A stretch of DNA of 64,000 nucleotides from Asanoa hainanensis (GTDB taxonomy: Bacteria > Actinomycetota > Actinomycetes > Mycobacteriales > Micromonosporaceae), in contig NZ_FZPH01000017.1 of assembly GCF_900188485.1 (NCBI RefSeq), positions 1 to 64,000 of the forward strand. Reading direction: 5' to 3'. The first letter of the stretch is position 1. Each line of letters starts with the position of its first letter. Below, in pieces: positions 32,732-48,177 of the stretch. The position numbers and the translations under genes were made by a program. The notes under the pieces are model-generated. The model was given only the letters and a program-made list of their open reading frames with translations, did not search any database and was not told the DNA's origin.

Positions 32732-33901
32732 TCACGCCGCCCGGCGGTGGACCGTGGTCATCGCGACGACGCCCAGCAGGCCGGCCACCGGGGCCAGGGC
32801 GAAGCCGGCCCGTAGATCCGTCGCCGCGAGTGGGCCCGTCAGCGCCGCTCCCGTGGCGCTGCCGACGGTGAACGCGGTGACGATCCACGCGAACGCCTCC
32901 ACCACCGTGCCCGGTGGGGCCAGGTCGTCGGTCGTGAGGAAGACCGCGGTCAGCAGCGGCGGCAGGGAGAACCCGCTCACCGCGACCAGAACCGCCATCG
33001 TGCCGACGCCCGGCAGCAACAGCAGTGGCAGGTAGCCGACCGCGAAGCACACCGCCAGCCAGGGCAGCCGGCCCGTCCCGCCGGGCTTCGCGCGGGTGTA
33101 GAGCAGGCCGCCGAGCAGCGCACCGCCGGCCTGTGCCGCCAGCAGCCAGCCGCTCAGGCCCCGGTCGCCCGTCGCCTCCGCGTAGCCCGTCAGGACCACC
33201 GGCAGGCTGCCCACCGCCGCGCCCGCGCAGGCCACGCCGGCTACCAGCACCACGAAGCGCGCCACCCGCAGCGGGCCGGCCCAGTGTCGCGGCGCCGGCT
33301 CGCCCCGCCACACCCGCACCGGGCCCGCCAGGGCGAAGACGATCACGCCCGCGAGCTGGCACGCGGCCGCCGCGACCAGGCCCGCCGGCGGCCCGGCGAT
33401 GCCGACCGCGGTCAGCGTGACCAGTGGACCCACCACGAAGATGATCTCTTGAAGGGCGATGTCGAGCGTGTACGCGGCCGGGACCGCCGGTGAGGGCACC
33501 AACGAGGGCCAGAGTGCCCGCAGGCAGGCCTCCAGCGGCGGCGTTCCCAGGCCGGCCAACGCCGCGCCGGCCAGCGTCGGCACCAACGCACCTCCGCCGG
33601 CCGCGACCAGCAGGAAGCCCAACGCGGACAACGCCGACGAGGCGTACAGCACCGGTGGCTGGCGCCAGCGGTCGACCGAGCGGGCCAGCAGCGGCGCGCT
33701 GACCGCCATGCCGGCCGTGTAGACCGCGACCACCACACCGGCCACGGTCAGGCTGACGGACTCGCGGGCGAACAGCAGCAGGGCCAGCGGGCCGGAGGCC
33801 AGCGGCAGGCGGCCGACCTGGTTGGCGAGCAGCAGCCGGGGCACGCGCGGTGCGCGCAGGACGGTCCGGATGCCGGGCGGTGCGGACGTGACTGTAGACA
33901 T
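32732..33901 (-). CDS. MFS transporter (12-helix drug/sugar exporter type)
   Basis: A 389-residue major-facilitator protein: LLANQVGRLPLASGPLALLLFARESVSLTVAG opens helix 1, the loop 2-3 motif is LLARSVDRWRQPP, and twelve helices can be placed. Residues GWLLAAQAGGALLGGLLYTRAKP and FTVGSATGAALTGPLAA belong to helices of the second half. This resembles the proteobacterial/actinobacterial 'arabinose efflux permease' type exporters. It starts the last part of a minus-strand transcript that also holds a short upstream ORF (33953-34042) with its stop 52 bases before this ATG. GGGAG lies about ten bases before the ATG. Confidence 0.85.
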   Translation of the reverse strand: MSTVTSAPPGIRTVLRAPRVPRLLLANQVGRLPLASGPLALLLFARESVSLTVAGVVVAVYTAGMAVSAPLLARSVDRWRQPPVLYASSALSALGFLLVAAGGGALVPTLAGAALAGLGTPPLEACLRALWPSLVPSPAVPAAYTLDIALQEIIFVVGPLVTLTAVGIAGPPAGLVAAAACQLAGVIVFALAGPVRVWRGEPAPRHWAGPLRVARFVVLVAGVACAGAAVGSLPVVLTGYAEATGDRGLSGWLLAAQAGGALLGGLLYTRAKPGGTGRLPWLAVCFAVGYLPLLLLPGVGTMAVLVAVSGFSLPPLLTAVFLTTDDLAPPGTVVEAFAWIVTAFTVGSATGAALTGPLAATDLRAGFALAPVAGLLGVVAMTTVHRRAA

Positions 33902-33952
33902 AGGACAGCGCTCCCAAGAACAGAAGGGACAGGGCCGGAGACGGGCCCGGTC

Positions 33953-34042
33953 TCAGGGAGCGAAGTCGCCGCGGTTGTGATCGTTGCCATACAGGGGCAG
34001 CGGCGGAGTGATCCAGCGCGCGAAGGCGGCAGCGGGGATCAC
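33953..34042 (-). CDS. Short upstream ORF (29 codons), candidate leader or small protein
   Basis: A GTG-started frame between the two MFS genes that reads MIPAAAFARWITPPLPLY, then a polar end GNDHNRGDFAP, and stops 51 bases before the second MFS gene. It begins ten bases after the upstream MFS stop, in the normal arrangement of an operon. Downstream of its stop, GAGAC/GTCTC and GGGCC/GGCCC can form two mutually exclusive small hairpins. A translated leader controlling the exporter, or a small membrane-associated protein, are both possible. The sequence looks non-random but I cannot name a family. Confidence 0.45.
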   Translation of the reverse strand: MIPAAAFARWITPPLPLYGNDHNRGDFAP

Positions 34043-34051
34043 ACCGGCATT

Positions 34052-35410
34052 CTAGCGGTGCGTGCGGTCGAGGGTATAGCGGCGTTGCACCAGCAGCGCC
34101 ACGACCAGCAGCACGGCCGGCACGATGCCGAAGCCGTAGCGGACCGCGTCCAGGGCCGACGACGACTGCTGGACGTCGTCGCCGCTCGAGCCCACGAAGC
34201 CGCCGATGGCCAGGCAGGCCGCGTAGAGGTACGGGCCGATCGCGCCGCCGGCCGAGTCCGCGGCCGTCCACACGCCCGTGTAGCTGCCGGCGTCGGCGAT
34301 CTTGCGTCCGGACGCGGCGGCCACCACGTCGGGCAGCATCGCGAAGTAGAGCAGCTGCAACGCGGCGAACGCGACGCCCAGCACCGCCACCACCGCGACC
34401 AGCACCGCCAACGGCACGCGGCTGCCGAGGGCGATGACCAGCCCGCCGGCCGCGAAGACGCCCTGGGCCACGAGCAGGCCGCGCTGCTTGCCGATGCGCC
34501 GGGTCACCGCGAGCCAGACTGGCGTGGCCACCAGCGCGGGTCCGAGGAACGCCGCGATCAGCACGGTGGTCAACCCGGACCGGCCCAGCTCGTACGTGGC
34601 GTAGTACGGCGCCGCCGCGAGCACCAGGTGGGTCGCGGTGCCGGTCAACAGATAGGCGGTCACCAGTGGGCGGAACTGCGGGTCGCGCAGCGAGCTGAGC
34701 AGGACCCGGATGCCGCGCAGCGGAGGTGGCGCCGCGTTCACCGGCGTTCCCGCTGCCGCGCCGAGCCGGCGTACACCGTTGATCCCCACCAGCATCGCGG
34801 CGAGCATCCCGGCGGCCAGCGCGCACCCCATCACGACGTACCCGGTGCGGGTCGGATCGTCGCCCCCCACGAGCACCGGGGCGAGCACGCCGCTGGCCAG
34901 GATGCCGACGGTGAGCACGACCATCCGGAACGACATGAGCCGGGTGCGCTCGTGGTAGCCGATCGCGAGGTCCGCCGGGGTCGCGAGATACGGCACCTGG
35001 TACGCCGCGAAGAGCAGGTTGCCGAGGACGTAGAAGGCCGCGACCCAGATCGCGGCGGCGTTGCCGTGCAGGCCACCGGGCACGGCGAACAGAGCGGCAA
35101 AGGCCAGCGGGAGTACGCAGGCGAGCAGCATCAGGGTCAGCCGGTGGCCGTGCCGGGCGCGCTGCACGTCGGAGACGTGGCCGACGAACGGGTGCAGCAG
35201 CACGTCGGCGATCTTCGGCACCAGCAGGGCGAAGCCGGCGGCGAGCGGCGCCACGGCCAGCACGTCGGTGAGGAAGTAGAGCAGCAGCAGGCCCGGCACG
35301 GTGATCCAGACGCCCATGCCGATCGAGCCGGTGGAGAAGGCCAGCAGGCCGCTGCGGGGCAGGCTGACGGTGCCGGTCTCGGTGGTCGGCTCGACCGGGG
35401 TCCGGGTCAT
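34052..35410 (-). CDS. MFS transporter, MelB/GPH-type symporter fold
   Basis: A 452-residue twelve-helix transporter: GSIGMGVWITVPGLLLLYFLTDVLAVAPLAAGFALLVPKIADVLLHPFVGHVSD is the typical GPH (glycoside-pentoside-hexuronide) start, with D in helix 2 (KIADVLLHP) and the repeated TADSAGGAIGPYLYAACLAIGG in the second half. These carry sugars or glycosides with Na+ or H+, but some are exporters. The start at 35410 follows TGACCGG-rich DNA with no perfect Shine-Dalgarno; upstream in-frame codons belong to the divergent monooxygenase promoter. It is the first gene of a transcript with the short ORF and the second MFS gene. Confidence 0.85.
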   Translation of the reverse strand: MTRTPVEPTTETGTVSLPRSGLLAFSTGSIGMGVWITVPGLLLLYFLTDVLAVAPLAAGFALLVPKIADVLLHPFVGHVSDVQRARHGHRLTLMLLACVLPLAFAALFAVPGGLHGNAAAIWVAAFYVLGNLLFAAYQVPYLATPADLAIGYHERTRLMSFRMVVLTVGILASGVLAPVLVGGDDPTRTGYVVMGCALAAGMLAAMLVGINGVRRLGAAAGTPVNAAPPPLRGIRVLLSSLRDPQFRPLVTAYLLTGTATHLVLAAAPYYATYELGRSGLTTVLIAAFLGPALVATPVWLAVTRRIGKQRGLLVAQGVFAAGGLVIALGSRVPLAVLVAVVAVLGVAFAALQLLYFAMLPDVVAAASGRKIADAGSYTGVWTAADSAGGAIGPYLYAACLAIGGFVGSSGDDVQQSSSALDAVRYGFGIVPAVLLVVALLVQRRYTLDRTHR

Positions 35411-35492: not shown

Positions 35493-36773
35493 ATGGCTGC
35501 ACGGCCAGAGGTCGTGGTGATCGGTGCGGGGCCCGCCGGCCTGGCCACGCTGAAGGCGTTGGCCGACCGGGGCATCGACGCGGTGTGCCTCGACGCGGGC
35601 GACCGGCCCGGCGGGCTGTGGGTCCTCGGCGGTCCGGGCTCGGGCGCCTATCGGACGCTGCACCTCAACACGAGCCGCACCCGGACCCAGTTCGCGGACT
35701 TCCCGATGCCGGCCGACTGGCCCGACTATCCGAGCCACGACCGGATCCTGGACTACCTGACCGCGTACGCGGAGAAGTTCGGGCTGCGCGAGGCGATCCG
35801 GCACCGGCACGTCGTCACCAATGTCCGCCGCACCGACGACGGAGGCTGGTCGGTCGACGCGGACGGCCCGTCCGACCGGGTGTCGACGCCAGCGCGGGCG
35901 GTCGTCGTCGCGTCCGGACACAACAGCGTGCCCCGCTGGCCCGACCCGCCGCTAGCCGGGTTGACCGCCGATCAGATGCACAGCCACGACTACCGCGAGC
36001 CCGCGCAGCTCGCCGGTCGCCGCGTGCTCGTCGTCGGTGGCGGCAACTCGGCCATGGACATCGCCGCCGACGCCTCCAACGTGGCCGCCCGCACGATCCT
36101 GTCGCTACGCCGCGGCGTGTGGGTCGTGCCCAAGTACCTCTTCGGCCGTCCGTCGGACACGCTCAACGGCGCGCTCGCCACCCGGCTGCCGTGGCGGCTG
36201 CGGCAGGCGGTCAGCCAGACGATGCTCCGCCTGGCGACCGGTCATCCCACCGCACACGGCCTGCCGGCGCCCCGGCACGGGTTCCTCCAGGACCACCCCA
36301 CGCTGTCCGATGTGCTCGTCTCGCGGGTCGGGCACGGCGAGATCACCGTCCGGGGCGCTGTCGTCGGCGCGAGCGGCTCCACTGTGGAGTTCGCGGACGG
36401 CTCCCGCGAGGAGGTCGACCTGGTCGTGTGGTGCACCGGCTACCGGCCGCAGATCCCGTTCCTCGACGTCGAGGGCGACCAGGTGCCGTTGTACCGGCAC
36501 GTCTTCCACCTGGACGAGCCCGGCCTGTACTTCGTGGGCCTCATGCAGTCCACGGGTTCCGCACTGCCCATCGTGGAGTCCCAGGCGAGGCTGGTCGCGG
36601 CCCATCTGGCCGGCCGCTACGTGCTGCCCTCCCGCGAACGCCAACGTGCCGACCGGGCGGCCCGGCTGCGCCAGGCCCACCGCCGCTGGGGCGACCGCCG
36701 CACCGCGATGCGGATCGACTTCGACGCCTACCAGAAGCTCGCGGCAGACGAACTACGCAGGGGTACGCGATGA
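35493..36773 (+). CDS. Flavin-dependent monooxygenase (FMO/BVMO class)
   Basis: A 426-residue two-dinucleotide-binding-domain protein: FAD site VVVIGAGPAGLATLKAL (GxGxxG at residues 11-16), NADPH site VLVVGGGNSAMDIAADASN, and the late ATG/CTG element VVWCTGYRPQIPFLDVEG. The conserved LHLNTSRTRTQFADFPMP and NSRGVWVVPKYLFGRPSD fit the flavin-containing monooxygenase class that oxidises ketones (Baeyer-Villiger), amines or sulfides. It starts a plus-strand pair with the SDR (4-base overlap) and faces the MFS gene divergently. The likely role is in the catabolic block that follows; the substrate is unknown. Confidence 0.85.
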   Translation: MAARPEVVVIGAGPAGLATLKALADRGIDAVCLDAGDRPGGLWVLGGPGSGAYRTLHLNTSRTRTQFADFPMPADWPDYPSHDRILDYLTAYAEKFGLREAIRHRHVVTNVRRTDDGGWSVDADGPSDRVSTPARAVVVASGHNSVPRWPDPPLAGLTADQMHSHDYREPAQLAGRRVLVVGGGNSAMDIAADASNVAARTILSLRRGVWVVPKYLFGRPSDTLNGALATRLPWRLRQAVSQTMLRLATGHPTAHGLPAPRHGFLQDHPTLSDVLVSRVGHGEITVRGAVVGASGSTVEFADGSREEVDLVVWCTGYRPQIPFLDVEGDQVPLYRHVFHLDEPGLYFVGLMQSTGSALPIVESQARLVAAHLAGRYVLPSRERQRADRAARLRQAHRRWGDRRTAMRIDFDAYQKLAADELRRGTR

Positions 36774-37570
36774 AGCGCGTGATCGTCACCGGCGCCGGCG
36801 GCACGATCGGACGGGCGCTCTCCACCCGGTTCCGCGACAGCGGCGCCCGGGTGGTCGGCCTGGACCTGACGCTGCCCCCGGACGCGCCCGTGCCCATCCT
36901 GGCGTGCGACCTGACCGACCAGGCCCAGGTCGAGGCGGCCGTGGCCGCGGCGATCAGCCGCCTCGGCGGCCTGGACCTGCTCGTCAACAACGCCGGCATC
37001 GGCGGTCCGGCACCGGCCGAGCTCGCACCGGACGAAACGGTCCGCCGGCAGCTCGAGGTGAACCTGCTGGCGGCCTGGTCGACGACGGCGGCCGCCCTGC
37101 CGGCGCTGGAGGCCACCCGCGGCCGGGTCGTCTTCATCGCCAGCCGGATGGCGGCCCTGCCGCTGCCGCTGGCCGCCGCGTACGGCGTCAGCAAGCGGGC
37201 CCTGGTCGCCTACGCCGACGCCCTGCGCCTGGAGGTCGGCACCCACATCGGCGTCACGGTCGTCTACCCGAGCATGATCGCGTCACCGATCCACGACTCG
37301 ACGGCCGCCGCCGGCCTGTCCCTGGACGGCGTCTCCCGCTACGAGCCCGTCGAAGGCGTGGTGGCCGCGGTGACCCGGGCCGCCACGGCCCGCCGCGCTC
37401 CGGCCAACCTCGCCACCACCCGCCGCGGCCGGCTGGAGATCGCCATCGCCCGTCACTTCCCCGCCCTCGCGCGCCGCATGGTCAATCGAACCGTCGCGAA
37501 GCGCCTCACCGCGGGCTCGTTCGACAACTCACCCCTCGCCGCCGGACTGCGCCGGCGCGCCGGCCGCTGA
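36770..37570 (+). CDS. Short-chain dehydrogenase/reductase
   Basis: A 266-residue classical SDR: NAD(P) site VTGAGGTIG (residues 6-14), NNAG, catalytic region FIASRMAALPLPLAAAYGVSKRAL with S/Y/K, and a longer C-terminal region ending in a basic helix (ARHFPALARRMVNRTVAKRL) that may touch a membrane or cover the active site. Translationally coupled to the monooxygenase gene (ATGA). The SDR/FMO pair could interconvert an alcohol and ketone before oxygenation. The last 42 bases overlap the convergent acyl-CoA dehydrogenase gene in another frame, an unusually long overlap. Confidence 0.9.
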   Translation: MKRVIVTGAGGTIGRALSTRFRDSGARVVGLDLTLPPDAPVPILACDLTDQAQVEAAVAAAISRLGGLDLLVNNAGIGGPAPAELAPDETVRRQLEVNLLAAWSTTAAALPALEATRGRVVFIASRMAALPLPLAAAYGVSKRALVAYADALRLEVGTHIGVTVVYPSMIASPIHDSTAAAGLSLDGVSRYEPVEGVVAAVTRAATARRAPANLATTRRGRLEIAIARHFPALARRMVNRTVAKRLTAGSFDNSPLAAGLRRRAGR

Positions 37571-38728
37571 CGCCGGAGCGCCGTAGCGGCGGACGGCGCG
37601 GCGGGCCAGGGACATGCGGTGGACCTCCGAGGGGCCGTCGTAGATGCGGAACGGCCGGAGCTCGCGGGCGATCCGGGCGACCGGTAGGTCGGCCGAGACG
37701 CCGGCGCCGCCGCACAGCTGCATCGCCCGGTCGGCCACGCGGCCGAGCGCCTCGGCGCCGAAGACCTTGGCCAGGGAGGTCTCCTCGCGGCCGGCGCCGC
37801 CCGCGTCGAGGACCCGGCACGCCGTCAGCAGCAACGACCGGGTCGCCGCCAGGTCGAGCTCGTTGTCCGCGATCATCAGTTCGACCATGCCCTGGCGCGC
37901 CAGCGGGGTGCCGAAGGCCGAGCGCCCGCTGACGTACGCGACCGCCGCCTCGTGGGCCCGTTGCGCCGCACCCAGCCAGCGCATCACGTGGGTCAGCCGG
38001 GCCGGGCCGAGCCGGACCTGCGCGTAGCGGAAACCCTCGTCGACCGCGCCCAGCACATCCTCGTCCGCGACCCGCACGTCCGTGAACGACAGCTCGCAGT
38101 GCCCACCGATCATCGACCGGTCCATTGTGGGCACGTGCCGGGTGATCGCGATCCCCGGACGGTCCGCCGGCACCAGGAACATCGTTGCCCCACCGGGAGT
38201 CCGGGCCATGACGATGTAGAACCCCGCCCCCTCCGCGCCCGTGATGAACTTCTTGAGGCCGGTCAAGGACCACCCCGCTCCGGAACGGCTAGCAACCGTC
38301 AGTAGGGCGCTCGGGTCGGACCCCGCGCCCGGCGGCGGCTCCGTCATCGCGAACGCCGACCGCTGCTCGCCACGGGCCAACGGGGCCAGATACCGAGAAC
38401 GCTGCGCGGGCGAGGCTACCTGGTCGAGCAGGTGCAGGTTCCCCTCGTCGGGAGCGTTGATATTCAGCGCCATCGGCCCGAACAGCGACCTCCCGGCCGC
38501 TTCGAAGACCGGCGCCCGGTCGACCATCCCCAAGCCGAGTCCGCCGAACTCAACGGGGGCGTGGGGCGCGAAGACGCCGGCGGCGCGGGCCGACTTCTGG
38601 AGGTCGACCCGGAGCCGGTCACCACCGGCGGTCGTGGCGTCGCCGTCGAACGCGTCCTCCAGAGGAAGCACCTCGGACGACACGAACGCCCTCGTACGCG
38701 CGACGAGATCTTCCAATTGGCTGGTCAT
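37529..38728 (-). CDS. Acyl-CoA dehydrogenase, ACAD10/11-like
   Basis: A 399-residue FAD enzyme: the N-terminal helical domain, FAMTEPPPGAGSDPSALLT (acyl-CoA/FAD motif), GLKKFITGAEGAGFYIVMART, and the C-terminal RIYDGPSEVHRMSLARR. In classical acyl-CoA dehydrogenases the last motif carries the catalytic Glu as YEG; here it is D364 in DGPSEVHR, the variant of ACAD10/ACAD11 and the related bacterial enzymes that act after phosphorylation of 4-hydroxyacyl-CoAs. The kinase partner is encoded at 47176-48177. The start follows GAGGTG. It is divergent from the second monooxygenase, and its 3' end overlaps the SDR gene. Confidence 0.85.
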   Translation of the reverse strand: MTSQLEDLVARTRAFVSSEVLPLEDAFDGDATTAGGDRLRVDLQKSARAAGVFAPHAPVEFGGLGLGMVDRAPVFEAAGRSLFGPMALNINAPDEGNLHLLDQVASPAQRSRYLAPLARGEQRSAFAMTEPPPGAGSDPSALLTVASRSGAGWSLTGLKKFITGAEGAGFYIVMARTPGGATMFLVPADRPGIAITRHVPTMDRSMIGGHCELSFTDVRVADEDVLGAVDEGFRYAQVRLGPARLTHVMRWLGAAQRAHEAAVAYVSGRSAFGTPLARQGMVELMIADNELDLAATRSLLLTACRVLDAGGAGREETSLAKVFGAEALGRVADRAMQLCGGAGVSADLPVARIARELRPFRIYDGPSEVHRMSLARRAVRRYGAPASAAGAPAQSGGEG

Positions 38729-38834
38729 GCGGCACCTCGCTGTCGACGGACACATTTCAAAAAAGTTTCACGTAGGTGTTGCTCGTCACTCGGTCCAAGG
38801 TCCAGACTCTCGCTACCGAGCGAGCGCTCGGCCT

Positions 38835-38849
38835 GTATCAGACTGATAC
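38835..38849. promoter_or_regulatory. Perfect palindrome, probable TetR operator
   Basis: GTATCAG-A-CTGATAC, a perfect 15-base dyad in the spacer between the divergent acyl-CoA dehydrogenase and monooxygenase genes, just upstream of the latter's Shine-Dalgarno (GGAAGGG). The TetR protein encoded in the same cluster (45837-46448) is the natural candidate to bind it. A partial CGAGCGCTCG dyad lies at 38821-38830. Confidence 0.6.
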
Positions 38850-38867
38850 GGACGGAAGGGCGCGTCA

Positions 38868-40604
38868 ATGGCGACGGAGACACCCGAGACCACGTTCGCC
38901 ACGTGGCTGGACCGATTCACCGCGGCACTGCGCGACGCCGACGTCGCGGGCACCACCGCGCTGCTCGCCCGCGACTGCTGGTGGCGCGACCTCCTCGCGC
39001 TGACCTGGGACCTGGGCACCTACCAAGGCCAGGACCGCGTCGCCGAGATGCTCGAGAAGCACGCACAACCTGGCGCACTGACCCACATCACGATGACCAC
39101 CGAGTTCGGCCCCCGCGACGCGGACGGCGTCATCGAAGGCTTCATCACGTTCGAGACCCCGCTCGGCTTCGGCCGGGGCGCCATCCGCCTCGTCCGAGAA
39201 GACGACCAGTGGGTCGCCTGGACAATCCTCACCGAGCTCGACGACCTGCGCGGCCACGAGCGGGCGATCGGCCAGCACCGCTCGCGCGGCCCGCGGCACA
39301 ACCCGGCGGACCACGGCCGCAACTGGCGGGAGCAGCGCGAGGAGCACGGACGATACGCGAGCCACGACCCCGACGTCGTCGTCATCGGCGCCGGCCAGGG
39401 CGGCCTCACCGTCGCCGCGAACCTCGGCCTCATGGGCGTCGACACGCTGATCCTCGAGAAGAGCGAGCGGGTCGGCGACGGGTGGCGCAAGCGCTACCAC
39501 TCGCTCGTCCTGCACGACCCCGTGTGGGCCGACCACCTGCCGTACATGCGCTATCCCGAGTCCTGGCCGGTCTACTGCCCCAAGGACAAGATCGCCGACT
39601 GGTTCGAGTCGTACGCGGCCGCCATGGAGCTCAACGTCTGGACCAGCGCCGAGCTGACCAGCAGCCAGTTCGACGAGGCGACCGGCCGCTGGACCCTGCG
39701 CGTAAACACACCCGAGGGCGAGCGCGAGCTGCACCCGCGCGACGTCATCCTGGCCACCGGCGCCGCCGGCGAGCCGAACATCCCCGCTGTCCCGGGCCGC
39801 GACGGGTTCGCCGGCACCAGCTACCACTCGAGCAGGCACCCCGACGCCCGCCAGTGGGCCGGCAAGAAGGCCGTCGTCGTCGGCGCCTGCAACAGCGGCC
39901 ACGACATCGCGCAGGACCTCTACGAGGCCGGCGCCGACGTCACCCTCGTGCAGCGCTCGTCGACGCACATCATCAGCCAGGAGCACGGCATCCCGGCCAT
40001 CTTCGGCAGCAACTTCGTCGAGGGCGGCCCGCCGACCGCGTACGCGGACCTGCTCGCCGCCGGCACACCCTGGCCGCTCGTCCTCGAGTTCGCCAAGGAC
40101 GGCGTCAAGGAGACCGCGAAGAAGGACGCCGACCTGCTCGCCGCGCTCGACGCCGTCGGCTTCAAGCGCAACGACGGCCCTGACGGCACCGGCCTGATGG
40201 GGTACGCGCTGGCGTACGGCGGCGGCTACTACATCGACGTGGGCGCCTCGGGGCTCATCGCCGACGGGAAGATCAAGCTCGCCCAGGGCTCCGGGCTCGC
40301 GGAGTTCACGCCGGAGGGCATCCGCCTCGAGGACGGCCGCGCGCTGGACGCGGACCTCGTCGTGCTCGCCACCGGCTACCAGAACATGCGCGAGACCGCG
40401 CGGCGGCTCTTCGGCGACGAGGTCGCCGACCGGCTGCCGCTGGTCCTCGGCATCGGGGAGGACGGCGAGATCGGCGGGCTCTACCGCCGCACCGGCCACC
40501 CCGCGTTCTGGTACATGGGCGGACCGCTCGCCTGGGTCCGCATCTATTCCAAGCACCTCGCCCTGCAGATCACCGCGAAGCACGCGGGACTTCCCACGCC
40601 CTGA
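38868..40604 (+). CDS. Flavin monooxygenase with N-terminal SnoaL/NTF2-like domain
   Basis: A 578-residue fusion. Residues 10-125 are an NTF2-like cone (TTFATWLDRFTAALRDADVAGTTALLARDCWWRDLLALTWDL). Residues about 165-578 are an FMO/YUCCA-like monooxygenase: VVVIGAGQGGLTVAANLGL (FAD), VVVGACNSGHDIAQDLYEAG (NADPH), VVLATGYQNMRETARRLFGD (ATGY element). Such fusions occur in actinobacteria with other catabolic genes; the cone may cap the active site or remove an oxygenation product. The ATG sits after GGAAGGG and the palindrome, so it opens the plus-strand catabolic transcript, perhaps under TetR control. Confidence 0.9.
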   Translation: MATETPETTFATWLDRFTAALRDADVAGTTALLARDCWWRDLLALTWDLGTYQGQDRVAEMLEKHAQPGALTHITMTTEFGPRDADGVIEGFITFETPLGFGRGAIRLVREDDQWVAWTILTELDDLRGHERAIGQHRSRGPRHNPADHGRNWREQREEHGRYASHDPDVVVIGAGQGGLTVAANLGLMGVDTLILEKSERVGDGWRKRYHSLVLHDPVWADHLPYMRYPESWPVYCPKDKIADWFESYAAAMELNVWTSAELTSSQFDEATGRWTLRVNTPEGERELHPRDVILATGAAGEPNIPAVPGRDGFAGTSYHSSRHPDARQWAGKKAVVVGACNSGHDIAQDLYEAGADVTLVQRSSTHIISQEHGIPAIFGSNFVEGGPPTAYADLLAAGTPWPLVLEFAKDGVKETAKKDADLLAALDAVGFKRNDGPDGTGLMGYALAYGGGYYIDVGASGLIADGKIKLAQGSGLAEFTPEGIRLEDGRALDADLVVLATGYQNMRETARRLFGDEVADRLPLVLGIGEDGEIGGLYRRTGHPAFWYMGGPLAWVRIYSKHLALQITAKHAGLPTP

Positions 40605-40708
40605 CGGGCAAGCGCCGGCGAACGGGTGGCCCAGCCAGGTCCACCCGTGATGCCACGCGCCCGAACGGGCCCGACCGATACAACCGCGCAGCCGAAAGGA
40701 GTAACCCA

Positions 40709-41851
40709 GTGAAGCGTTCTCGTGGCGCCATGCTCCGGGCAGTCATCGCCGGAGCCGCCAGCGCCAGCATTCTTCTGGTCGCCGCGTGCGGCGGCAACGA
40801 CGCCGGCGACGGCGGCTCGGGCTCCGGCTCGAAGCTCGTCTACTTCATGGCACCCAACACGACTCCCACCCGCTACATCCAGCAGGACGGCCCGGCGTTC
40901 GAGAAGGCGATCAAGGCGCTGGACCCGACCGTCGAGGTCAAGTTCGTCAACGCCGGCGGCGACTCCAACCAGCAGCTCGCCCAGGCCAACGCGGCGATCG
41001 CGGCCGGCGCCAAGGCGCTCGTCGTGGTCGCGGCCGACCCGAACACCAGCGCGGGCCTGCTGCAGGCCGCCGAGCAGGCCAAGGTGCCGGTCATCGGCTA
41101 CGAGAACCCGCCGGTGAAGGGCACGCTGTACAGCCAGGTGATCTTCGACCCGGAGAAGGTCGGCGCGCAGCAGGCCACCTACTTCGCCGACCAGGTCACC
41201 AGCGGCAAGCTCGGCGCCAAGCCGGTCAAGGTCGCGCGCCAGTACGGCAACAAGGGCGACGTCTACACGACCCAGATGCTGGCCGGGCAGAACAAGGTGA
41301 TCGACCCGCTGATCGCGAGCGGCGACATCCAGGTGGTCTGCGAGGACTACATCAAGGACTGGGCGCCGGACAACGCGACCAAGGCGACCGAGCAGTGCCT
41401 GACCAAGACGCAGAACGGTGTCGGGGCCTTCTTCGGCTTCTACGACGGCATCACGGCCGGCATCATCGCGGCGCTCAAGGCCAAGAACGTCAAGATTCCG
41501 GTGTACGGAGGACAGAACCCCGAGTTGACCGGTCTTCAATACATGCTGACCGGCGACCAGCAGGACAACGTGCTCAAGGCGTTCAAGGTCGAGGCGGAGG
41601 CCGCGGCGAAGATCGCGATCGCGGCGATCGGTGGCCAGCAGCCCCCGGCCGACCTGGTCAAGGACAAGATCGACAACGGCGCGATGCAGGTGCCGACCGC
41701 CAAGCTGGACGCCACACTGATCCACCTGCAGGACGGCAAGGACCCCGGTGACGCGGTGCAGCAGGCCGTCGACCTCGGCATGTTCACCTGGGCGCAGATC
41801 TGCACGGGACCGGCCGCCGACACGGAGACCTGCAAGACCCGCAACAAGTAA
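40709..41851 (+). CDS. ABC-type solute-binding lipoprotein, sugar/ribose type (periplasmic-binding fold I)
   Basis: A 380-residue lipoprotein: lipobox LLVAACGG with the lipidated C27, then two Rossmann-like lobes (VYFMAPNTTPTRYIQQDGPAFEKAIKALDP, VVAADPNTSAGLLQAAEQAKVPVIGYENP, VGAFFGFYDGITAGIIAALKAKNV, VYGGQNPELTGLQYMLTGDQQ). This is the RbsB/XylF family of sugar and autoinducer receptors. The genes that follow encode the single-NBD ATPase and permease of this class. The catabolic context suggests a non-sugar ligand, perhaps the substrate oxidised by the cluster. GTG start after AAAGGAG. Confidence 0.9.
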   Translation: MKRSRGAMLRAVIAGAASASILLVAACGGNDAGDGGSGSGSKLVYFMAPNTTPTRYIQQDGPAFEKAIKALDPTVEVKFVNAGGDSNQQLAQANAAIAAGAKALVVVAADPNTSAGLLQAAEQAKVPVIGYENPPVKGTLYSQVIFDPEKVGAQQATYFADQVTSGKLGAKPVKVARQYGNKGDVYTTQMLAGQNKVIDPLIASGDIQVVCEDYIKDWAPDNATKATEQCLTKTQNGVGAFFGFYDGITAGIIAALKAKNVKIPVYGGQNPELTGLQYMLTGDQQDNVLKAFKVEAEAAAKIAIAAIGGQQPPADLVKDKIDNGAMQVPTAKLDATLIHLQDGKDPGDAVQQAVDLGMFTWAQICTGPAADTETCKTRNK

Positions 41852-41906
41852 TCCCCATCGCTAGCGGGCGGTCGGCCGCGACGCCGACCGCCCGGCGGAG
41901 GAAACC

Positions 41907-42674
41907 ATGACCACTCCCCTGCTCCAGCTCACGAAGGTCTCCAAACACTTCGGCGGTGTCCGCGCCCTGCACGAGGTCGACATGGCGGTGCACGCGGGCG
42001 AGGTCGTGGCGCTCGTCGGCGACAACGGCGCCGGGAAGTCCACATTGGTCAAGATAGTGTCGGGTGTGGAGTCGCCGGACGGCGGTGAGATCCGAGTCCG
42101 TGGTGAGGCCAGGCGACTGGAGTCACCCCGGGCGGCGGCCGAGGCCGGCATCCGCACCGTCTTCCAGGACCTGTCGTTGTGCGACAACCTCGACGCCGTG
42201 CAGAACCTGTTCCTGGGCCAGGAACGCTACGGCCCCGTGTGGTCGGGCCGCCGCGTCCGGCGCCACGTCATGGAGGAGCAGGCCCAGCGGGTCCTCGAGT
42301 CGCTGTCGGTAAAGTTGCGCGCCCTCAACACCCCCGTGGTGGCGCTGTCGGGCGGCCAGCGCCAGGGCATCGCGATCGGCCGCGCGCTGATCAGCGACCC
42401 AGCCGTGGTGATCCTCGACGAGCCGACCGCGGCCCTCGGGGTGTCCCAGCGCGGCGAGGTGCTCGACCTGATCGACCGCCTGCGCGAGCAAGGCCGGGCG
42501 GTCGTCGTGATTTCCCACGACATGAAGGACGTGCGGCGGGTCGCCGACCGGATCGTGGTCCTGCGGCTCGGCACGAAGGTCGCCGAGTTCGAACGCGGCG
42601 GCTACACCCCGGCGGACCTGGTCGGCGCGATGACCGGCGCACACGAGACGAACGACGAAGGCGGAGAGCAGTGA
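41907..42674 (+). CDS. ABC importer ATPase, single-domain (sugar type)
   Basis: A 255-residue ATP-binding subunit: Walker A VGDNGAGKST (residues 38-47), signature LSGGQRQG, Walker B VVILDEPTAALG followed by the switch His in VVVISHDM. Unlike RbsA or XylG it has only one NBD, as in FrcA-type systems, so it must dimerise. It overlaps the permease gene by GTGA. It energises uptake of the ligand captured by the lipoprotein encoded just upstream. Confidence 0.9.
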   Translation: MTTPLLQLTKVSKHFGGVRALHEVDMAVHAGEVVALVGDNGAGKSTLVKIVSGVESPDGGEIRVRGEARRLESPRAAAEAGIRTVFQDLSLCDNLDAVQNLFLGQERYGPVWSGRRVRRHVMEEQAQRVLESLSVKLRALNTPVVALSGGQRQGIAIGRALISDPAVVILDEPTAALGVSQRGEVLDLIDRLREQGRAVVVISHDMKDVRRVADRIVVLRLGTKVAEFERGGYTPADLVGAMTGAHETNDEGGEQ

Positions 42675-43891
42675 CCACCACGAAAGCCGCCACGAACGCC
42701 ACCGCGCCGGAGACCGGCCCGACGGGTCCGCGCGGGATCGGCCGGGCCATCGAGACCGCCGCGCGGGGGCACCGCAGCATCCCGGTCCTCGTCGTGCTGG
42801 CGATCATCTGGGCCGTGTTCTACAGCCAGAGCTCCGCGTACCTCAGCTTCCAGAACATCACGAACCTGACCCTGCAGATCGTGACGACCGCGATCCTCGC
42901 CCTGGGCGTGGTGTTCGTCCTGATCGTCGGCGAGATCGACCTGTCGTCGGCGGTGCTGTCCGGCGTCTGCGCGGCAGTGGCGGCGGGCCTGACCGTCAAC
43001 CACGGCCTGCCGCTGGTCGTCGGCATCGCGGCGGGCGTCGCCACCGGCATGGTCGTCACGTTCGTCGAGGCGCAGATCATCATGTTCGGCGTGCCGTCGC
43101 TGATCGTCACGCTGGGCGGCATGGTCATCCTCCAGGGCCTCATCCTGGTCGTGCTGCCGCCCGAGTTCACGATCAGCGTGGCGGGCACCCCGTTCGCGAA
43201 GATCGCCAGCACGGCGATCCCGGCCGGCGCGAGCTACGGGCTGGCGGCGGCGGGCACGCTCGCCTACGCGGGCTACCGCTTCTTCCAACACAGGGAGCGG
43301 GCGTCCACCGGCTCGCTGACTTCCCTGGCCACGGTCCTCGTACCCGCCGTCGTGGTCGCGGTCGTGCTCTTCGGCGGCGTCTTCACGCTCACCCAGCAAC
43401 GCGGACTGCCGATGCCGCTGCTGATCCTGGCCGTCATGCTGCTGATCGCCTGGTACGCCACGACCCAGACCCGCTACGGCATCCACCTGTACGCCGTCGG
43501 CGGCGACCGTGAGGCCGCCCAGCGCGCCGGCATCCCCGTGCGCCGGATGGTCCTCTACTCGTTCCTGATCCTCGGCGCCTGCGCCGCGATCGCCGGCATG
43601 GTCGACTCGTCCCGCCAGCTCGGGGTCTCGGTCACCTCCGGCGCGGGTCCGCTGATGCTCAACGCGATCGCCGCCGCGGTCGTCGGCGGCACCAGCCTGT
43701 TCGGCGGCCGGGGCTCGATCTGGTCGGCGCTGCTCGGCGCGCTGGTCATCGGCTCGATCAGCAACGGCGTACAGCTGCTGGGCCTGTCCACCGAGGTCCA
43801 GTACTTCGCGACCGGCTCCGTCCTCATCATCGCCGTGGCCGTCGACGTGGTCCTCACCCGCGGCTCCCTGCTGCCGGGCCGGCGCGCATGA
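42671..43891 (+). CDS. ABC importer permease (RbsC/XylH family)
   Basis: A 406-residue integral membrane protein with about ten to eleven helices. Family marks are ILALGVVFVLIVGEIDLSSAVLSGVCAAVAA (the conserved GEIDLS), MFGVPSLIVTLGGMVILQGL, YAVGGDREAAQRAGIPVRRM and AVVGGTSLFGGRGSIWSALLGALVIGSISNG. The start is a GTG overlapping the ATPase stop. The next gene, the CoA ligase, overlaps its end by ATGA, tying uptake directly to activation of the substrate. Confidence 0.9.
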   Translation: MTTTKAATNATAPETGPTGPRGIGRAIETAARGHRSIPVLVVLAIIWAVFYSQSSAYLSFQNITNLTLQIVTTAILALGVVFVLIVGEIDLSSAVLSGVCAAVAAGLTVNHGLPLVVGIAAGVATGMVVTFVEAQIIMFGVPSLIVTLGGMVILQGLILVVLPPEFTISVAGTPFAKIASTAIPAGASYGLAAAGTLAYAGYRFFQHRERASTGSLTSLATVLVPAVVVAVVLFGGVFTLTQQRGLPMPLLILAVMLLIAWYATTQTRYGIHLYAVGGDREAAQRAGIPVRRMVLYSFLILGACAAIAGMVDSSRQLGVSVTSGAGPLMLNAIAAAVVGGTSLFGGRGSIWSALLGALVIGSISNGVQLLGLSTEVQYFATGSVLIIAVAVDVVLTRGSLLPGRRA

Positions 43892-45840
43892 CGCGGATCC
43901 AACCGGACTGGGTGCCGGACCCTTCGGTGGTCGCGCGGAGCCGGATCGTCCGGTTCGCGACCTGGCTCGACGCGCGGGGTTACGCGTCGTTCGACGACGT
44001 GACCGACTACCCGGCCCTGCACGCGTGGTCGGTGGCCCACCCCGGCGAGTTCTGGGCGGCGGTCGCGGAGTTCTTCGCGGTCGACTGGTCCACTCCCCCG
44101 AGCGGCGCACTCACCGAACGCCGGATGCCGGGCGCGGTCTGGTTCCCCGACGGCACGCTGAACTTCGGCGCGCACCTGCTGCGGGCCGGCGTGGACGACC
44201 AGGACGCCGTGATCCTGGTGTCGGAGAACGGCGACCGGACCTCGATCACCTACGCCGAGCTGCGGGCCCGGGCGTTCGCGGTCGCCGGCCGGCTGCGCGC
44301 GCTCGGCGTCGAGCCGGGCGACCGGGTCGCCGCCTACCTGCCCAACTGCGTCGAGGGTGTCGTCGCGTTCGTGGCCACCGCGTTGGTCGGCGCGGTCTGG
44401 GCGCAGACCGGCCTCGACTACGCGGCGCCCTCGGCCGCCGACCGGATGGCCCAGCTCGAGCCCCGCGTCCTGATCACGGGCTCCGGCTACCACTTCGGCG
44501 GCACGGTGCACGACCGGCGCGCCGACGCCCGTGCCCTGCGGGACCTGCTGCCCGGCCTCCGGCACACCATCACGGTCGAGACCGCCGGGCTCGCGCATCC
44601 CGTCGACGACGCCAGCACCTGGGCGGACGCCCTCGCCGCCGACCCCGACCCGACCGCCGAGGCCGTGCCGTTCGCGTACCCCCTCGGGGTGCTGTTCACC
44701 TCGGGCACGACCGGCAAGCCGAAGGGCATCGTGCACGGCCACGGCGGCGTACTCCTGGAGCAGCTCGTCTCCCCCGGCCTGCACCTGGACCTGCGCGCCG
44801 AAGACGTCTTCTTCTGGTTCACCACACCCAACTGGATGATGTGGAACGCCCAGGTCTGCGGGCTGCTGCACGGCGCGACCATCGTCCTGTACGACGGCCG
44901 GCCGCGCCCGGAGACGCTGTGGCCGCTGGTCGCCGACCTCGGCGTCACCGTGTTCGGCACGAGCCCGGGCTTCCTGGAAGCCTCCCAGCGCGCCGGCCTC
45001 GAACCAGGACCGGCGAACCTGCGGATCGTCGGCGTGACCGGATCGGTGCTGCCGGCCTCCGCCAACGTGTGGTTCCGGCACCACGTCAGCGCGAGCGTCC
45101 AACTAGGATCGATGAGTGGGGGTACGGACATCTGCGGCATCTTCGTCGCCAGCGCACCGACCACCCCGGTCTACGACGGGGAGATCAGTGCCCCCGCGCT
45201 CGGTGCGGCCGTCGAGGTCTGGAACGCTGACGGCGAGGAGGTCCCGGCCGGCACGCCGGGAGAAATGGTGATCACCGAGCCGATGCCGTCGATGCCCCTG
45301 CGGTTCTGGGCCGACCCTGACGACCGGAAGCTGCGGGACACCTACTTCGCGGACTTCCCCGGTGTGTGGCGGCACGGAGACCTGACCGTGCGCACGGAGC
45401 GTGGCACCGTCGTCATCCTCGGGCGTTCGGACGCGACCATCAACCGCCACGGGGTCCGGCTGGGCTCGGCGGAGCTCTACGACGCGATCATCGACCTGGC
45501 CGAGGTGGCGGACGCGCTGGTCGTGGGCGTGGAGGAGCCCGACGGGGGCTACTGGCTGCCGCTGTTCGTGGTCCCGCACGGCTCGCCCGATCCGGCTTCC
45601 CTGGTCGAGCTGGTGCGCCGGCGCATCACGGAGCGGGCGTCACCACGGCACGCCCCCGACGACGTGGTGATCGTCGATCGGCTGCCGCACACGCGTACGG
45701 GCAAGCGTTTGGAGGTTCCGGTCAAGCGCATCCTGCAGGGCGCCGATCCGGAGCAAGTGATCAACCGAGGCGCGGTCGACGATCCGGAGGCGCTCGACGC
45801 CCTGGTCGCCGCCGCACGCACGAAGCGGGGCAGGCGATGA
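43888..45840 (+). CDS. Acetoacetyl-CoA synthetase-like acyl-CoA ligase
   Basis: A 650-residue ANL-superfamily ligase of the AacS type: N-terminal PDPSVVARSRIVRFATWL, adenylation motif FTSGTTGKPKGIVHGHGG, GSMSGGTDICGIF (the AacS SGGTD signature) and the C-terminal RVKRILQG. AacS activates acetoacetate or similar short 3-/4-keto acids with ATP and CoA. In the levulinate pathway an AacS-like LvaE does the same job. It is embedded in the overlap chain permease-ligase-TetR-SDR-kinase, so its substrate should be what the importer brings in or what the monooxygenases release. Confidence 0.9.
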   Translation: MTRIQPDWVPDPSVVARSRIVRFATWLDARGYASFDDVTDYPALHAWSVAHPGEFWAAVAEFFAVDWSTPPSGALTERRMPGAVWFPDGTLNFGAHLLRAGVDDQDAVILVSENGDRTSITYAELRARAFAVAGRLRALGVEPGDRVAAYLPNCVEGVVAFVATALVGAVWAQTGLDYAAPSAADRMAQLEPRVLITGSGYHFGGTVHDRRADARALRDLLPGLRHTITVETAGLAHPVDDASTWADALAADPDPTAEAVPFAYPLGVLFTSGTTGKPKGIVHGHGGVLLEQLVSPGLHLDLRAEDVFFWFTTPNWMMWNAQVCGLLHGATIVLYDGRPRPETLWPLVADLGVTVFGTSPGFLEASQRAGLEPGPANLRIVGVTGSVLPASANVWFRHHVSASVQLGSMSGGTDICGIFVASAPTTPVYDGEISAPALGAAVEVWNADGEEVPAGTPGEMVITEPMPSMPLRFWADPDDRKLRDTYFADFPGVWRHGDLTVRTERGTVVILGRSDATINRHGVRLGSAELYDAIIDLAEVADALVVGVEEPDGGYWLPLFVVPHGSPDPASLVELVRRRITERASPRHAPDDVVIVDRLPHTRTGKRLEVPVKRILQGADPEQVINRGAVDDPEALDALVAAARTKRGRR

Positions 45841-46448
45841 CGTCCGACTGGCGCGAATACGGTCCTCTGGAGTTCACGCGCATCCTCGACGCGGCGCTGG
45901 CGGCCTTCTACGAGCACGGCTACCACGGCACGACGACGCGTGACCTGGCCCGCCGGTCGGGGCTGTCGGTGCCGGGGGTCTACCACTACTACCCGTCCAA
46001 GCAGGACATCCTCGTCGACCTGATGACGGTCATCATCGACGAGCTGCTGACCCGGAGCCGCTCGGCGTTGGCCGGCGCGGCGCCCGACCCGCGGTCGCAG
46101 TTCGACGCGCTGGTCGAGTCGATGCTGCGGTTCCACATGTACCGGCGCACCGGCGCGATGGTCTCGACCGCCGAGCTGCGCAGCCTGGAGCCCGGCAACC
46201 GCGAGCGCTACGTCGCCAAGCGCGACGAACAGCAGCACATGCTCGACGAGGTGATCCTGGCCGGCGTGCGCGGCGGCGACTTCTCGACGTCGTACCCGAA
46301 GGACGCCAGCCGGGCCATCGCCTCGCTCTGCGTGGGCGTCGCGTCGTGGTACCGGCCAGACGGCAGCCTGCCCGTCGAGGCGCTCCTCGACCGCTATCTG
46401 ACCATCGCGCGCTCGATCGTGGGCATCGGCGAAGGGCCGCCACGATGA
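45837..46448 (+). CDS. TetR/AcrR family transcriptional regulator
   Basis: A 203-residue regulator: helix-turn-helix ILDAALAAFYEHGYHGTTTRDLARRSGLSVPGVYHYYPSKQDIL (residues about 14-58), then an all-alpha ligand domain with LRFHMYRRTGAMVSTAELRSLEPGNRERYVAKRDEQQ, reminiscent of the acyl-CoA-sensing TetR proteins (KstR2/FadR-like group). Overlapped on both sides by the catabolic genes, so it is co-expressed with them and probably autoregulates. The palindrome at 38835-38849 is the best candidate operator. The inducer may be an acyl-CoA of the pathway. Confidence 0.9.
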   Translation: MTSDWREYGPLEFTRILDAALAAFYEHGYHGTTTRDLARRSGLSVPGVYHYYPSKQDILVDLMTVIIDELLTRSRSALAGAAPDPRSQFDALVESMLRFHMYRRTGAMVSTAELRSLEPGNRERYVAKRDEQQHMLDEVILAGVRGGDFSTSYPKDASRAIASLCVGVASWYRPDGSLPVEALLDRYLTIARSIVGIGEGPPR

Positions 46449-47179
46449 GGTCCGCGGTGGTCACCGGCGCGTCCCGCGGGATCGGCCGGGGCATCGCGCT
46501 CGACCTGGCGCGGCAGGGCTGGCGGCTGACCCTGGCGGCCCGGGACCCGGCGCGCCTGGCCGCGGCGGCGGCGGAGATGACGGCTGCCGGTGCGTCCTAT
46601 GTGGAGCGTGTGGACGTGGACCTGGCCGATCCGGAGGCGCCGGCCACGGTGGTCGCCGCCCACGCCGCCCACCACTCCTGCCTCGACGCGCTCGTGCTCG
46701 CGGCCGGGGTCGGTTCTGCGGCTCCGTTGCACGAGTACCCGGTCCACCGCTACGACAAGCAGTTCGCGCTCAACACGCGCGCGCCGTTCCTGTTGATGCG
46801 CGAGGCGTTGCCGCTGCTGCGCGCGGCGGCGGTGCGGCAGCCCGCGCACGGCGCGAAGGTGATCGCCCTGGCGTCGATCGGCGGCGTGTACGCCGAGCCG
46901 TCGCTGGCCGTCTACGGCGCCACGAAGGCGGCGTTGCTGGCGCTGTGCCGCGGGTTCAACGCGGAGGAGTCGGCCGCCGGTGTCACCGCGACGGCCGTCG
47001 CACCGGGCTATGTGGACACCGACATGAGCGCGTGGGTGCACGACGCGGTGCCGCCCGCGGCGATGATCCCGGTATCGGACGTGGTCACCGCGGTCGGTGC
47101 GCTGCTGTCCCTGTCGGCGCGCAGCGTGGTCAACGAGCTCGTGCTCAGCCGTGCCGGGACTTCGGGGTACTCGGCATGA
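46445..47179 (+). CDS. Short-chain dehydrogenase/reductase
   Basis: A 244-residue classical SDR: cofactor site VVTGASRGIGRGIA (residues 5-18), LVLAAGVGS in place of NNAG, catalytic region IALASIGGVYAEPSLAVYGATKAALL (S, Y, K) and the C-terminal GYVDTDMSAW. Likely reaction: reduction or oxidation of a hydroxyacyl- or ketoacyl-CoA. In the levulinate pathway an SDR (LvaD) performs the 3-hydroxyacyl-CoA step. Overlaps TetR upstream and the kinase downstream by four bases each. Confidence 0.9.
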   Translation: MRSAVVTGASRGIGRGIALDLARQGWRLTLAARDPARLAAAAAEMTAAGASYVERVDVDLADPEAPATVVAAHAAHHSCLDALVLAAGVGSAAPLHEYPVHRYDKQFALNTRAPFLLMREALPLLRAAAVRQPAHGAKVIALASIGGVYAEPSLAVYGATKAALLALCRGFNAEESAAGVTATAVAPGYVDTDMSAWVHDAVPPAAMIPVSDVVTAVGALLSLSARSVVNELVLSRAGTSGYSA

Positions 47180-48177
47180 GCCTCGACCTGGCGGCGTTGG
47201 GCCGGTTCCTCTCGGGTGAGGGTGTCTCGCTCGCGGGCCCACTCAGCGCTTCGCTGATCGCCGGCGGCCGGTCCAATCTGACCTATGTGGTCACCGACGG
47301 CGCCCACCGTTGGGTAGTGCGGCGCCCGCCGGTGTCGGGCCTGACCCAGTCGGCGCACGACGTGGCGCGGGAGTGGCGCGTCGTGCGGGCGTTGCAGTAC
47401 AGCGCCGTGCCCGTGCCGCCGGTCGTCGCGCTCTGCGAGGACACGGAGGTGCTCGGCGCGCCGTTCGCCGTGACCGGGTTCGTGACGGGACAGGTCGTGC
47501 GTACGCGGGAGCAGCTCTCCGGCTATTCCGCCGTCGAGCTCGAGTCCTGCGTCACCGAGCTGGTCCGGGTCCTGGCGGACCTGCACTCCGTCGACGTGGA
47601 CGAGGTCGGCCTGCGGGGCCTGGGCCGGCCCGACGGCTTCCTCGAACGCCAGGTCGCGCTGTGGTGGCGGCAGTGGAACGAGGTCAAGAGCCAGGACCTC
47701 CCGGACGCGGACCGGCTGCACGCGCACCTGCTCTCGGTCTTGCCTGACCGTCCCGCACACATCGGGGTGGTGCACGGGGACTACCGGATCGACAACACGC
47801 TGCTGGACGCCTCCGACATCACCAAGGTGCTCGCGGTCGTCGACTGGGAGCTCGCCACGGTCGGCGACGTGCAGACCGACGTGGCCCTGATGTGCGTCTA
47901 CCGGCAGCCGGAGCTCGACCCGATCCTCGGCCTGGACGCGGCGTGGGCGAGCTCGCGCCTGCCCGACGCCGACGCGATCGCTTCCGCGTACGCCCGGCGG
48001 CGTGGGGTCGACCTGGACCATTGGCCGTTCTACCTGGCGTTGGCCAACTTCAAGCTGGCCGTCATCGCGCAGGGCATCTCCTACCGGGCGCGGCAGGGTG
48101 CGGCCGCCGACGCGACGTCGGTGCGGGCCGAGCAGGCGGTCGGCCCGCTGCTCGCGGCGGGGCTCAGAGCGCGCTGA
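47176..48177 (+). CDS. APH-family kinase, ACAD10/11-type (LvaA-like)
   Basis: A 333-residue aminoglycoside-phosphotransferase-fold kinase. The catalytic loop is VVHGDYRIDNTLLD (H200, D202, N207), the metal segment is VVDWELATVGDVQTDVALM (D223), all intact, and GGRSNLTYVV forms the nucleotide loop. This is the sequence type fused to acyl-CoA dehydrogenase in human ACAD10/ACAD11 and free in bacterial LvaA, which phosphorylates 4-hydroxyacyl-CoAs. The matching dehydrogenase is encoded nearby (37529-38728). It ends the catabolic overlap chain and converges with LysR by 14 bases. Confidence 0.9.
   Translation: MSLDLAALGRFLSGEGVSLAGPLSASLIAGGRSNLTYVVTDGAHRWVVRRPPVSGLTQSAHDVAREWRVVRALQYSAVPVPPVVALCEDTEVLGAPFAVTGFVTGQVVRTREQLSGYSAVELESCVTELVRVLADLHSVDVDEVGLRGLGRPDGFLERQVALWWRQWNEVKSQDLPDADRLHAHLLSVLPDRPAHIGVVHGDYRIDNTLLDASDITKVLAVVDWELATVGDVQTDVALMCVYRQPELDPILGLDAAWASSRLPDADAIASAYARRRGVDLDHWPFYLALANFKLAVIAQGISYRARQGAAADATSVRAEQAVGPLLAAGLRAR

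Follow-up and report, generated by a model that had tools for sequence, protein, structure and literature searches.

A conserved gene cassette of Asanoa hainanensis linking an ABC importer and a type II flavin-containing monooxygenase to a kinase and an LvaC-type acyl-CoA dehydrogenase

The window analyzed here, a stretch of 64,000 nucleotides from the 8.6 Mb genome of Asanoa hainanensis (contig NZ_FZPH01000017.1, positions 1 to 64,000), contains between positions 37529 and 48177 a group of genes that probably forms a single catabolic cassette under TetR control, serving the degradation of a small polar compound via a 4-hydroxyacyl-coenzyme A (CoA). An acyl-CoA dehydrogenase (ACAD) gene on the minus strand (37529-38728) lies back to back with a plus-strand operon encoding a type II flavin-containing monooxygenase (FMO2, 38868-40604), the binding protein (40709-41851), ATPase (41907-42674, PF00005) and permease (42671-43891, PF02653) of an ATP-binding cassette (ABC) importer, an acyl-CoA ligase of the AacS family (43888-45840), a TetR-family regulator (45837-46448, PF00440 and PF17932), a short-chain dehydrogenase/reductase (SDR2, 46445-47179, PF00106), and a kinase of the aminoglycoside phosphotransferase (APH) fold (47176-48177, PF01636). 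The gaps between FMO2 and the binding protein gene and between the latter and the ATPase gene measure 104 and 55 bases, respectively, and each of the five junctions from the ATPase to the kinase is a 4-base stop/start overlap, as had been stated in an earlier interpretation made from the letters of the window (hereafter, the sequence-only reading). The gene types listed there, namely two FMOs, SDRs, an ACAD, an importer, a ligase, a TetR regulator, and a kinase, are all present in the window. The ACAD, with DGPSEVHR near its end, had been counted as a member of the cluster; it belongs to the conserved unit, but as a divergent minus-strand gene it lies outside the operon.

The cassette, consisting of seven to nine neighbouring genes, was found in 22 genomes from several actinobacterial groups, the window's included, 18 of them in the family Micromonosporaceae; the recurrence of the gene set in other actinobacteria, proposed as a check by the sequence-only reading, was thus observed. 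When 354 genomes of the family were searched with the kinase, 22 of them (own included) matched at E ≤ 1e-80, and the identities fell into two groups, 76-92% in 16 other genomes and 47-51% in the remaining five. The 16 close relatives all share the same gene order, consisting of the divergent ACAD, FMO2, binding protein, ATPase, permease, AacS-family ligase, TetR, and kinase, and 13 of them also carry SDR2, which occurs in 15 of the 22 clusters overall. One of the five distant family matches (L051) has the cluster, and none was detected for the other four within the 20 kb fetched. Beyond the family, the cluster was found in genome G409 (L100), in Actinomadura bangladeshensis (L116), in a Micrococcales metagenome-assembled genome (represented by its two contigs L122 and L143), and in G789 (L137). 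Since at most six candidates per genome were scored in the family search, and three in the order and class searches, absences in these searches are not firm. The TetR gene is present in all 22 clusters and FMO2 in every cluster genome, one copy being interrupted by a contig end. The ACAD gene was located at the locus in 20 of the 22 genomes, divergently in the window, the 16 close relatives, and the Micrococcales genome; in L051 and L100 it lies between the TetR and kinase genes. In L051, L100, and L137 the kinase is 49-51% identical to that of the window, compared with 62-79% for the other shared proteins, so that it has probably either been exchanged or evolved faster in these loci.

As judged from gene calls made by a simple procedure, the flanks of the cassette largely differ between the genomes compared, with neighbours common to few genome pairs only. 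A chance or merely loose association of these genes is very improbable, given that 22 genomes contain the same set amid largely different flanks; moreover, the ACAD gene changes place and strand and is nevertheless retained in most of them, and a palindrome described below is common to the loci. The non-conserved genes FMO1 and SDR1 at the 5' side would fit such a loose association. The region 37529-48177 is hence regarded, on the basis of its gene content, as a conserved catabolic cassette whose recurrence exceeds chance.

In PMC12440821, the catalytic Asp (D753) and the residues R626, H634, and R637 (mouse ACAD11 numbering) are described as unusual residues of ACAD10/11 and LvaC, and are tied to recognition and catalysis of 4-phosphoacyl-CoA. 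Equivalents of this Asp and of R626, R631, H634, and R637 are present in the window ACAD, which reads RLGPARLTHVMR versus RLGPGRIHHCMR and YDGPSEVH versus ADGPDEVH, and the HCMR motif shows a single change, from Cys to Val. Besides the window, the residue table and the trees comprised 10 of the 18 cluster relatives known at that stage (L137, L116, and L122/L143 were not in the trees), and the diagnostic residues were found in all 10 of these orthologues. They occur in none of five ordinary ACADs of the same genome and not in 2dvl; of 12 ACAD places in this genome, seven ordinary ones were entered, two of which were unalignable and dropped, and three were not entered. In the ACAD tree, a clade of 32 rows comprising the 4-phosphoacyl-CoA ACADs together with ACAD11 obtained a support of 99/98, and the window enzyme fell inside an LvaC-type clade (24 rows, support 100/99). 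Warnings by the program concerned long outgroup branches and an unusual composition of the row for ACAD11. The trees do not include kinase row L006 (a fragment) or the ACAD rows L078 and L082 (misread or misaligned). With 53% identity to LvaC of the lva operon on a Pseudomonas aeruginosa plasmid, the window ACAD is, by its residues and its position in the tree, classified as an enzyme of the LvaC/ACAD10-11 (4-phosphoacyl-CoA) kind, in agreement with the sequence-only reading.

Additional kinase/ACAD pairs were noticed in the course of the analysis. The Asanoa genome itself encodes a second one (G000:C22:438645-440812, L108), which is of the ACAD11 type (RLGPGRIHHCMR, HGDYRLDN) and 38-39% identical to the window pair. 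Rhodococcus and Georgenia plasmids (L014, L015, and L016) carry ACAD-kinase pairs 50-66% identical to those of the window, two of them with an SDR gene. The pair in L014 adjoins an AtuA-family gene and that in L015 lies in a stretch with limonene-degradation genes, and these neighbours suggest a terpenoid use of the kinase/ACAD module.

Among solved structures, the chains nearest to the kinase are 3dxp, ACAD11 (8v3v), and 9o56. The kinase features RE, RQ (in ARE and ERQ context), and HGDYRIDN where ACAD11 has RE, RQ, and HGDFKLDN, and three LvaA copies differ at these places. Like the ACAD10/11-type kinases, it keeps the catalytic Asp/Asn, R176, and the Arg beside the alpha-C Glu, the latter being residue 84 by our own count and printed as R86 in PMC12440821. 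In the kinase tree, the cassette kinases formed an actinobacterial clade of their own (99/96), and an ACAD11/3dxp clade (95/92) and an LvaA clade (100/99) were also recovered; the window kinase lies outside the LvaA clade and is 26% identical to LvaA over 217 residues. Its assignment to a joint Lva/ACAD10-11 group in the sequence-only reading accordingly holds for the ACAD11-type motifs but not for the relationship to LvaA. A Pfam search, which matched two of 14 control genomes, found no member of the LvaB family PF19802 (DUF6285) in 21 of the 22 cluster genomes, own included; this search, covering all 22 genomes, replaced an earlier tblastn search for LvaB, which was weak and had missed the window kinase as a relative of LvaA. 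This absence makes it most likely that the cassette kinase resembles ACAD10/11 in acting without LvaB. The sole cluster genome with an LvaB-family gene is an Actinomadura genome whose cluster lacks the cassette ACAD and SDR, and the gene is located on another contig (L147, G1025:C13:25242-25484). PMC6692424 reports that the lva region of P. citronellolis likewise has no lvaB. In kinase/ACAD clusters of Thermus, Azoarcus, and Stutzerimonas, by comparison, genes for a kinase, a DUF6285 (LvaB-like) protein, and a histidine phosphatase occur together (L068 8146-10116, L069 9982-12046, and L066 5811-7983).

The cassette could alternatively represent an actinobacterial levulinate (Lva) pathway, in which an imported 4-keto acid is activated, reduced by the SDR, and then processed by kinase and ACAD, with the FMO in a side role. 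The LvaC-type ACAD with its 53% identity and the SDR and CoA ligase genes beside the kinase would be in line with this. However, the explanation is rather unlikely, as it is opposed by the distribution of PF19802, by the kinase falling outside the LvaA clade, by a ligase only 27% identical to LvaE, by the clusters devoid of SDR2, and by the occurrence of the FMO in each cluster genome. SDR2 is 31% identical to LvaD, which reflects general SDR similarity, and LvaF and LvaG had no match in the window at E 0.01. Plain membership in the Lva system, to which the sequence-only reading had tied the genes, was therefore rejected, as LvaA-clade kinase, LvaB, LvaE-type ligase, and symporter are all missing. 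That reading had, furthermore, referred to LvaE as AacS-like, but LvaE and LvaE2 are grouped with medium-chain acyl-CoA synthetases in PMC6692424. The lva operon itself (lvaABCDEFG, P. aeruginosa p12939-PER, L065) resembles the cassette in that its LvaC-type ACAD shows identical active-site residues and is clustered with a kinase, an SDR, and a CoA ligase. It differs in having LvaA/LvaB and LvaE, a DUF485/cation-acetate symporter, and a PrpR-type regulator, whereas the cassette has a kinase of another clade without LvaB, an AacS-family ligase, an ABC importer, a TetR regulator, and, in addition, a type II FMO. Mammalian ACAD10 and ACAD11 share the kinase motifs RE, RQ, and HGDxxxDN and the ACAD diagnostic residues with the cassette, but they carry kinase and ACAD in one chain rather than on separate genes, and the cassette ACAD belongs to the LvaC-type and not to the ACAD11-type clade.

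FMO2 was most similar to JsFMO (8acs), with 462 bits over residues 10-578, which takes in nearly the full length of the protein, the next match reaching 66 bits. For JsFMO, a type II FMO whose Baeyer-Villiger activity has been measured, His-216, Asp-217, and Tyr-458 were proposed as catalytic residues (PMC10028610). By our own residue mapping (tag offset 16), these three residues are kept in all 20 cluster FMOs compared; the article gives the motif FxGxxxHxxx[YF][KR] in its text, and in the printed 8acs chain and in FMO2 that place is a His. The extension and the His/Asp/Tyr set identify FMO2 as a type II FMO with N-terminal extension and as a candidate Baeyer-Villiger monooxygenase, the activity itself being suggested by analogy with the FMO class. 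The presence in the conserved unit of an oxygenase from a class with measured Baeyer-Villiger activity agrees with what had been read from the sequence. FMO2 differs from JsFMO in that its gene is part of a catabolic cassette comprising kinase and ACAD genes.

The importer is, by homology, a xylose-type ABC importer composed of an XylF-like binding protein, an ATPase, and a permease. The binding protein belongs to PF13407, has XylF (3m9w) as its nearest solved chain, and shows 233 invariant columns in 13 cluster sequences. The scores inspected for sugar-importer NCBIfam models were all under the cut-offs; the GguB-like permease reached 198 bits in the GguB model (cut-off 450), and the ATPase, a single protein of 255 aa, is half as long as the matching sugar-importer ATPase models with their 492-513 positions. 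An Aureimonas homologue of the binding protein (40% identity), belonging to the nearest annotated homologue cluster, adjoins genes for an inositol dehydrogenase and a ring-cleavage dioxygenase, which gives no more than a hint of a cyclitol as ligand.

Between the divergent ACAD and FMO2 genes, the palindrome CCGAGCG-AG-CGCTCGG (38816-38831, no strand assigned) represents a candidate TetR operator. The motif CCGAGCG-NN-CGCTCGG, derived from the window and 16 close relatives, occurs in all 21 loci in which this end of the cassette is present, 23-45 bp ahead of the first start codon suitable for the FMO (L051 and L122 are cut off at the palindrome end and hence do not count among them). Four loci outside the family that were not used for the derivation provided an independent check, and the palindrome was found in all four. 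When five lineages were anchored on the palindrome without gaps, they agreed at 15 of 16 operator positions, compared with 2 of 140 flanking positions; as 14 of the 16 positions are fixed by the search pattern, it is the presence at the same place that constitutes the evidence. The 8.6 Mb genome contains one exact site for CCGAGCGANCGCTCGG and five further sites with one mismatch, versus 10 for a reversed control pattern. The TetR protein of the cassette is the presumed binder of this site. A GTATCAG-A-CTGATAC repeat beside the palindrome was rejected as operator, as it varies among the relatives.

Taken together, the cassette is proposed to function as follows. The xylose-type importer would take the compound in, FMO2 would insert oxygen, most likely in a Baeyer-Villiger reaction yielding an ester or lactone, and hydrolysis would leave a hydroxy acid. 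The AacS-type ligase would then form the acyl-CoA, and SDR2, where present, would reduce a keto group to the 4-hydroxyl. The kinase would phosphorylate this hydroxyl without an LvaB partner, and the ACAD would expel the phosphate in a redox-neutral FAD reaction to give a 2-enoyl-CoA for beta-oxidation. TetR would sit on the palindrome and be released by an intermediate. The kinase and ACAD steps rest on residues and trees and the earlier ones on knowledge of the protein families; substrate, Baeyer-Villiger chemistry, hydrolysis, order of the steps, and TetR binding are accordingly to be understood as predictions, as are the imported ketone and the Baeyer-Villiger opening put forward in the sequence-only reading. 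The central idea of the sequence-only reading, a kinase/ACAD route for hydroxy acids, is thereby largely supported by the gene set, the ACAD residues and tree, and the kinase motifs. Conceivably, the imported compound is a cyclitol- or sugar-like cyclic ketone that is ring-opened by the type II FMO to a lactone or hydroxy acid, the gamma-hydroxyl thus formed being removed by the LvaB-free kinase/ACAD pair, which might be the natural role of extended type II FMOs; this more specific version is put forward tentatively.

A number of findings, extending to the ligase and the oxygenase treated below, weigh against the cassette reading. Among the cassette genes, none for an evident esterase or lactonase that could cleave the ester or lactone was recognized, which leaves a gap in the Baeyer-Villiger route. 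SDR2 is missing in 7 of the 22 clusters; as it is optional, the 4-hydroxyl may already be part of the substrate or arise through the oxygenation. Two of the 22 genomes (L116 and L137) have no ACAD at the locus, and a search of them at E ≤ 1e-60 recovered only ACADs of 39-42% identity. These other ACADs keep the same diagnostic motifs, which speaks in favour of the reading. The branching order among the kinase clades, including the tie to the ACAD11 clade, is not settled by the tree. The structural model of the binding protein is weak (predicted local distance difference test score 70.5, template modelling score about 0.4-0.5) and agrees only with an XylF-type fold.

Regarding the ligase, its score of 650.4-650.7 bits passes the AacS model TIGR01217 (cut-off 520.9). 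The other AacS of the genome, located elsewhere, scored 816.8 bits, and the two paralogues are 45% identical to each other. Identity to 4wd1 amounted to 47% for the cassette ligase and 52% for the other AacS, so that by overall identity the former is only slightly more distant. According to alignment reading against these two reference sequences only, 4wd1 and the other AacS have the segments SCAPxFG and TGWMMWNFLVSG in common, where the window ligase and the seven cluster relatives printed carry QTxLDY and PNWMMWNAQVCG instead. The altered segments presumably line the acyl pocket, and, given that they are shared among the cluster ligases printed and that the genome encodes another AacS with a higher score, acetoacetate is probably not the main substrate of the cassette ligase. 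The opposite explanation, in which the ligase makes acetoacetyl-CoA, the cluster degrades a sugar- or leucine-like compound ending in acetoacetate, and the kinase acts on a non-CoA substrate, could appeal to the TIGR01217 score and the sugar-type importer; it would leave the LvaC-type ACAD unexplained and, in view of the ligase comparison, is considered improbable. As a separate observation, the AacS-type ligase frames in L047, L048, L050, L038, L040, and L049 contain long low-complexity stretches that are absent in the Asanoa enzyme, towards the N terminus in L047, L048, and L050 (whose start codons are not settled) and internally in L038, L040, and L049. These stretches look repeat-like by eye in L048 and L040; a repeat search was restricted to L047 and detected no repeats in its ligase.

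As for the oxygenase, JsFMO and shorter type II FMOs also perform sulfoxidation, and several monocyclic ketones are reported as not converted by JsFMO (PMC10028610). It is therefore possible, though clearly less favoured than the cassette reading as a whole, that FMO2 carries out hydroxylation, heteroatom oxidation, or detoxification instead of a Baeyer-Villiger oxidation, with kinase and ACAD still acting on a 4-hydroxyacyl-CoA; against this possibility stands the measured Baeyer-Villiger activity of the closest characterized enzyme.

The kinase/ACAD route has been described for levulinate in Pseudomonas and for 4-hydroxy acids in mammals (PMC6692424, PMC11342911, and PMC12440821). Clusters of Azoarcus, Comamonas, Cupriavidus, and Streptomyces also harbour an LvaC-type ACAD and an APH kinase near transporters, but of types other than that of the cassette: a tripartite ATP-independent periplasmic (TRAP) transporter in Azoarcus, binding proteins of the tripartite tricarboxylate transporter (TTT) type about 3 kb away in Comamonas, an ABC binding protein in Cupriavidus, and ABC-type genes, by similarity, in Streptomyces. 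The stretches fetched from these four contained neither an FMO2-like match nor a ligase above 25-26% similarity to that of the window. A transporter beside the kinase route, which had been thought new, is hence not new as such, whereas the importer- and oxygenase-fed cassette is new within a known pathway type; no publication on the combination of importer, type II FMO, and kinase/ACAD was found in a literature search that reached few subscription papers. If the cassette reading is correct, Actinomycetota would use the kinase/ACAD route, independently of LvaB, for a defined environmental compound as well, and type II FMOs, tested with model ketones and sulfides (PMC10028610), would be given a natural setting. 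A search for the substrate could directly start from the binding protein and the palindrome.

Upstream of the cassette, the window encodes an ordinary FMO-like protein (FMO1, 35493-36773) and a further SDR (SDR1, 36770-37570), both on the plus strand. They had been regarded as cluster parts, but in the relatives conservation begins only with the ACAD, which places FMO1 and SDR1 (35493-37570) outside the unit, and they were rejected as members. FMO1, SDR1, and the LysR and DapA genes recur in the nearest relative alone. Together with the region 32732-35410, containing a GPH-type symporter gene and a further minus-strand gene, FMO1 and SDR1 form a separate stretch that, of the 16 relatives compared, the nearest Asanoa has retained and no other.

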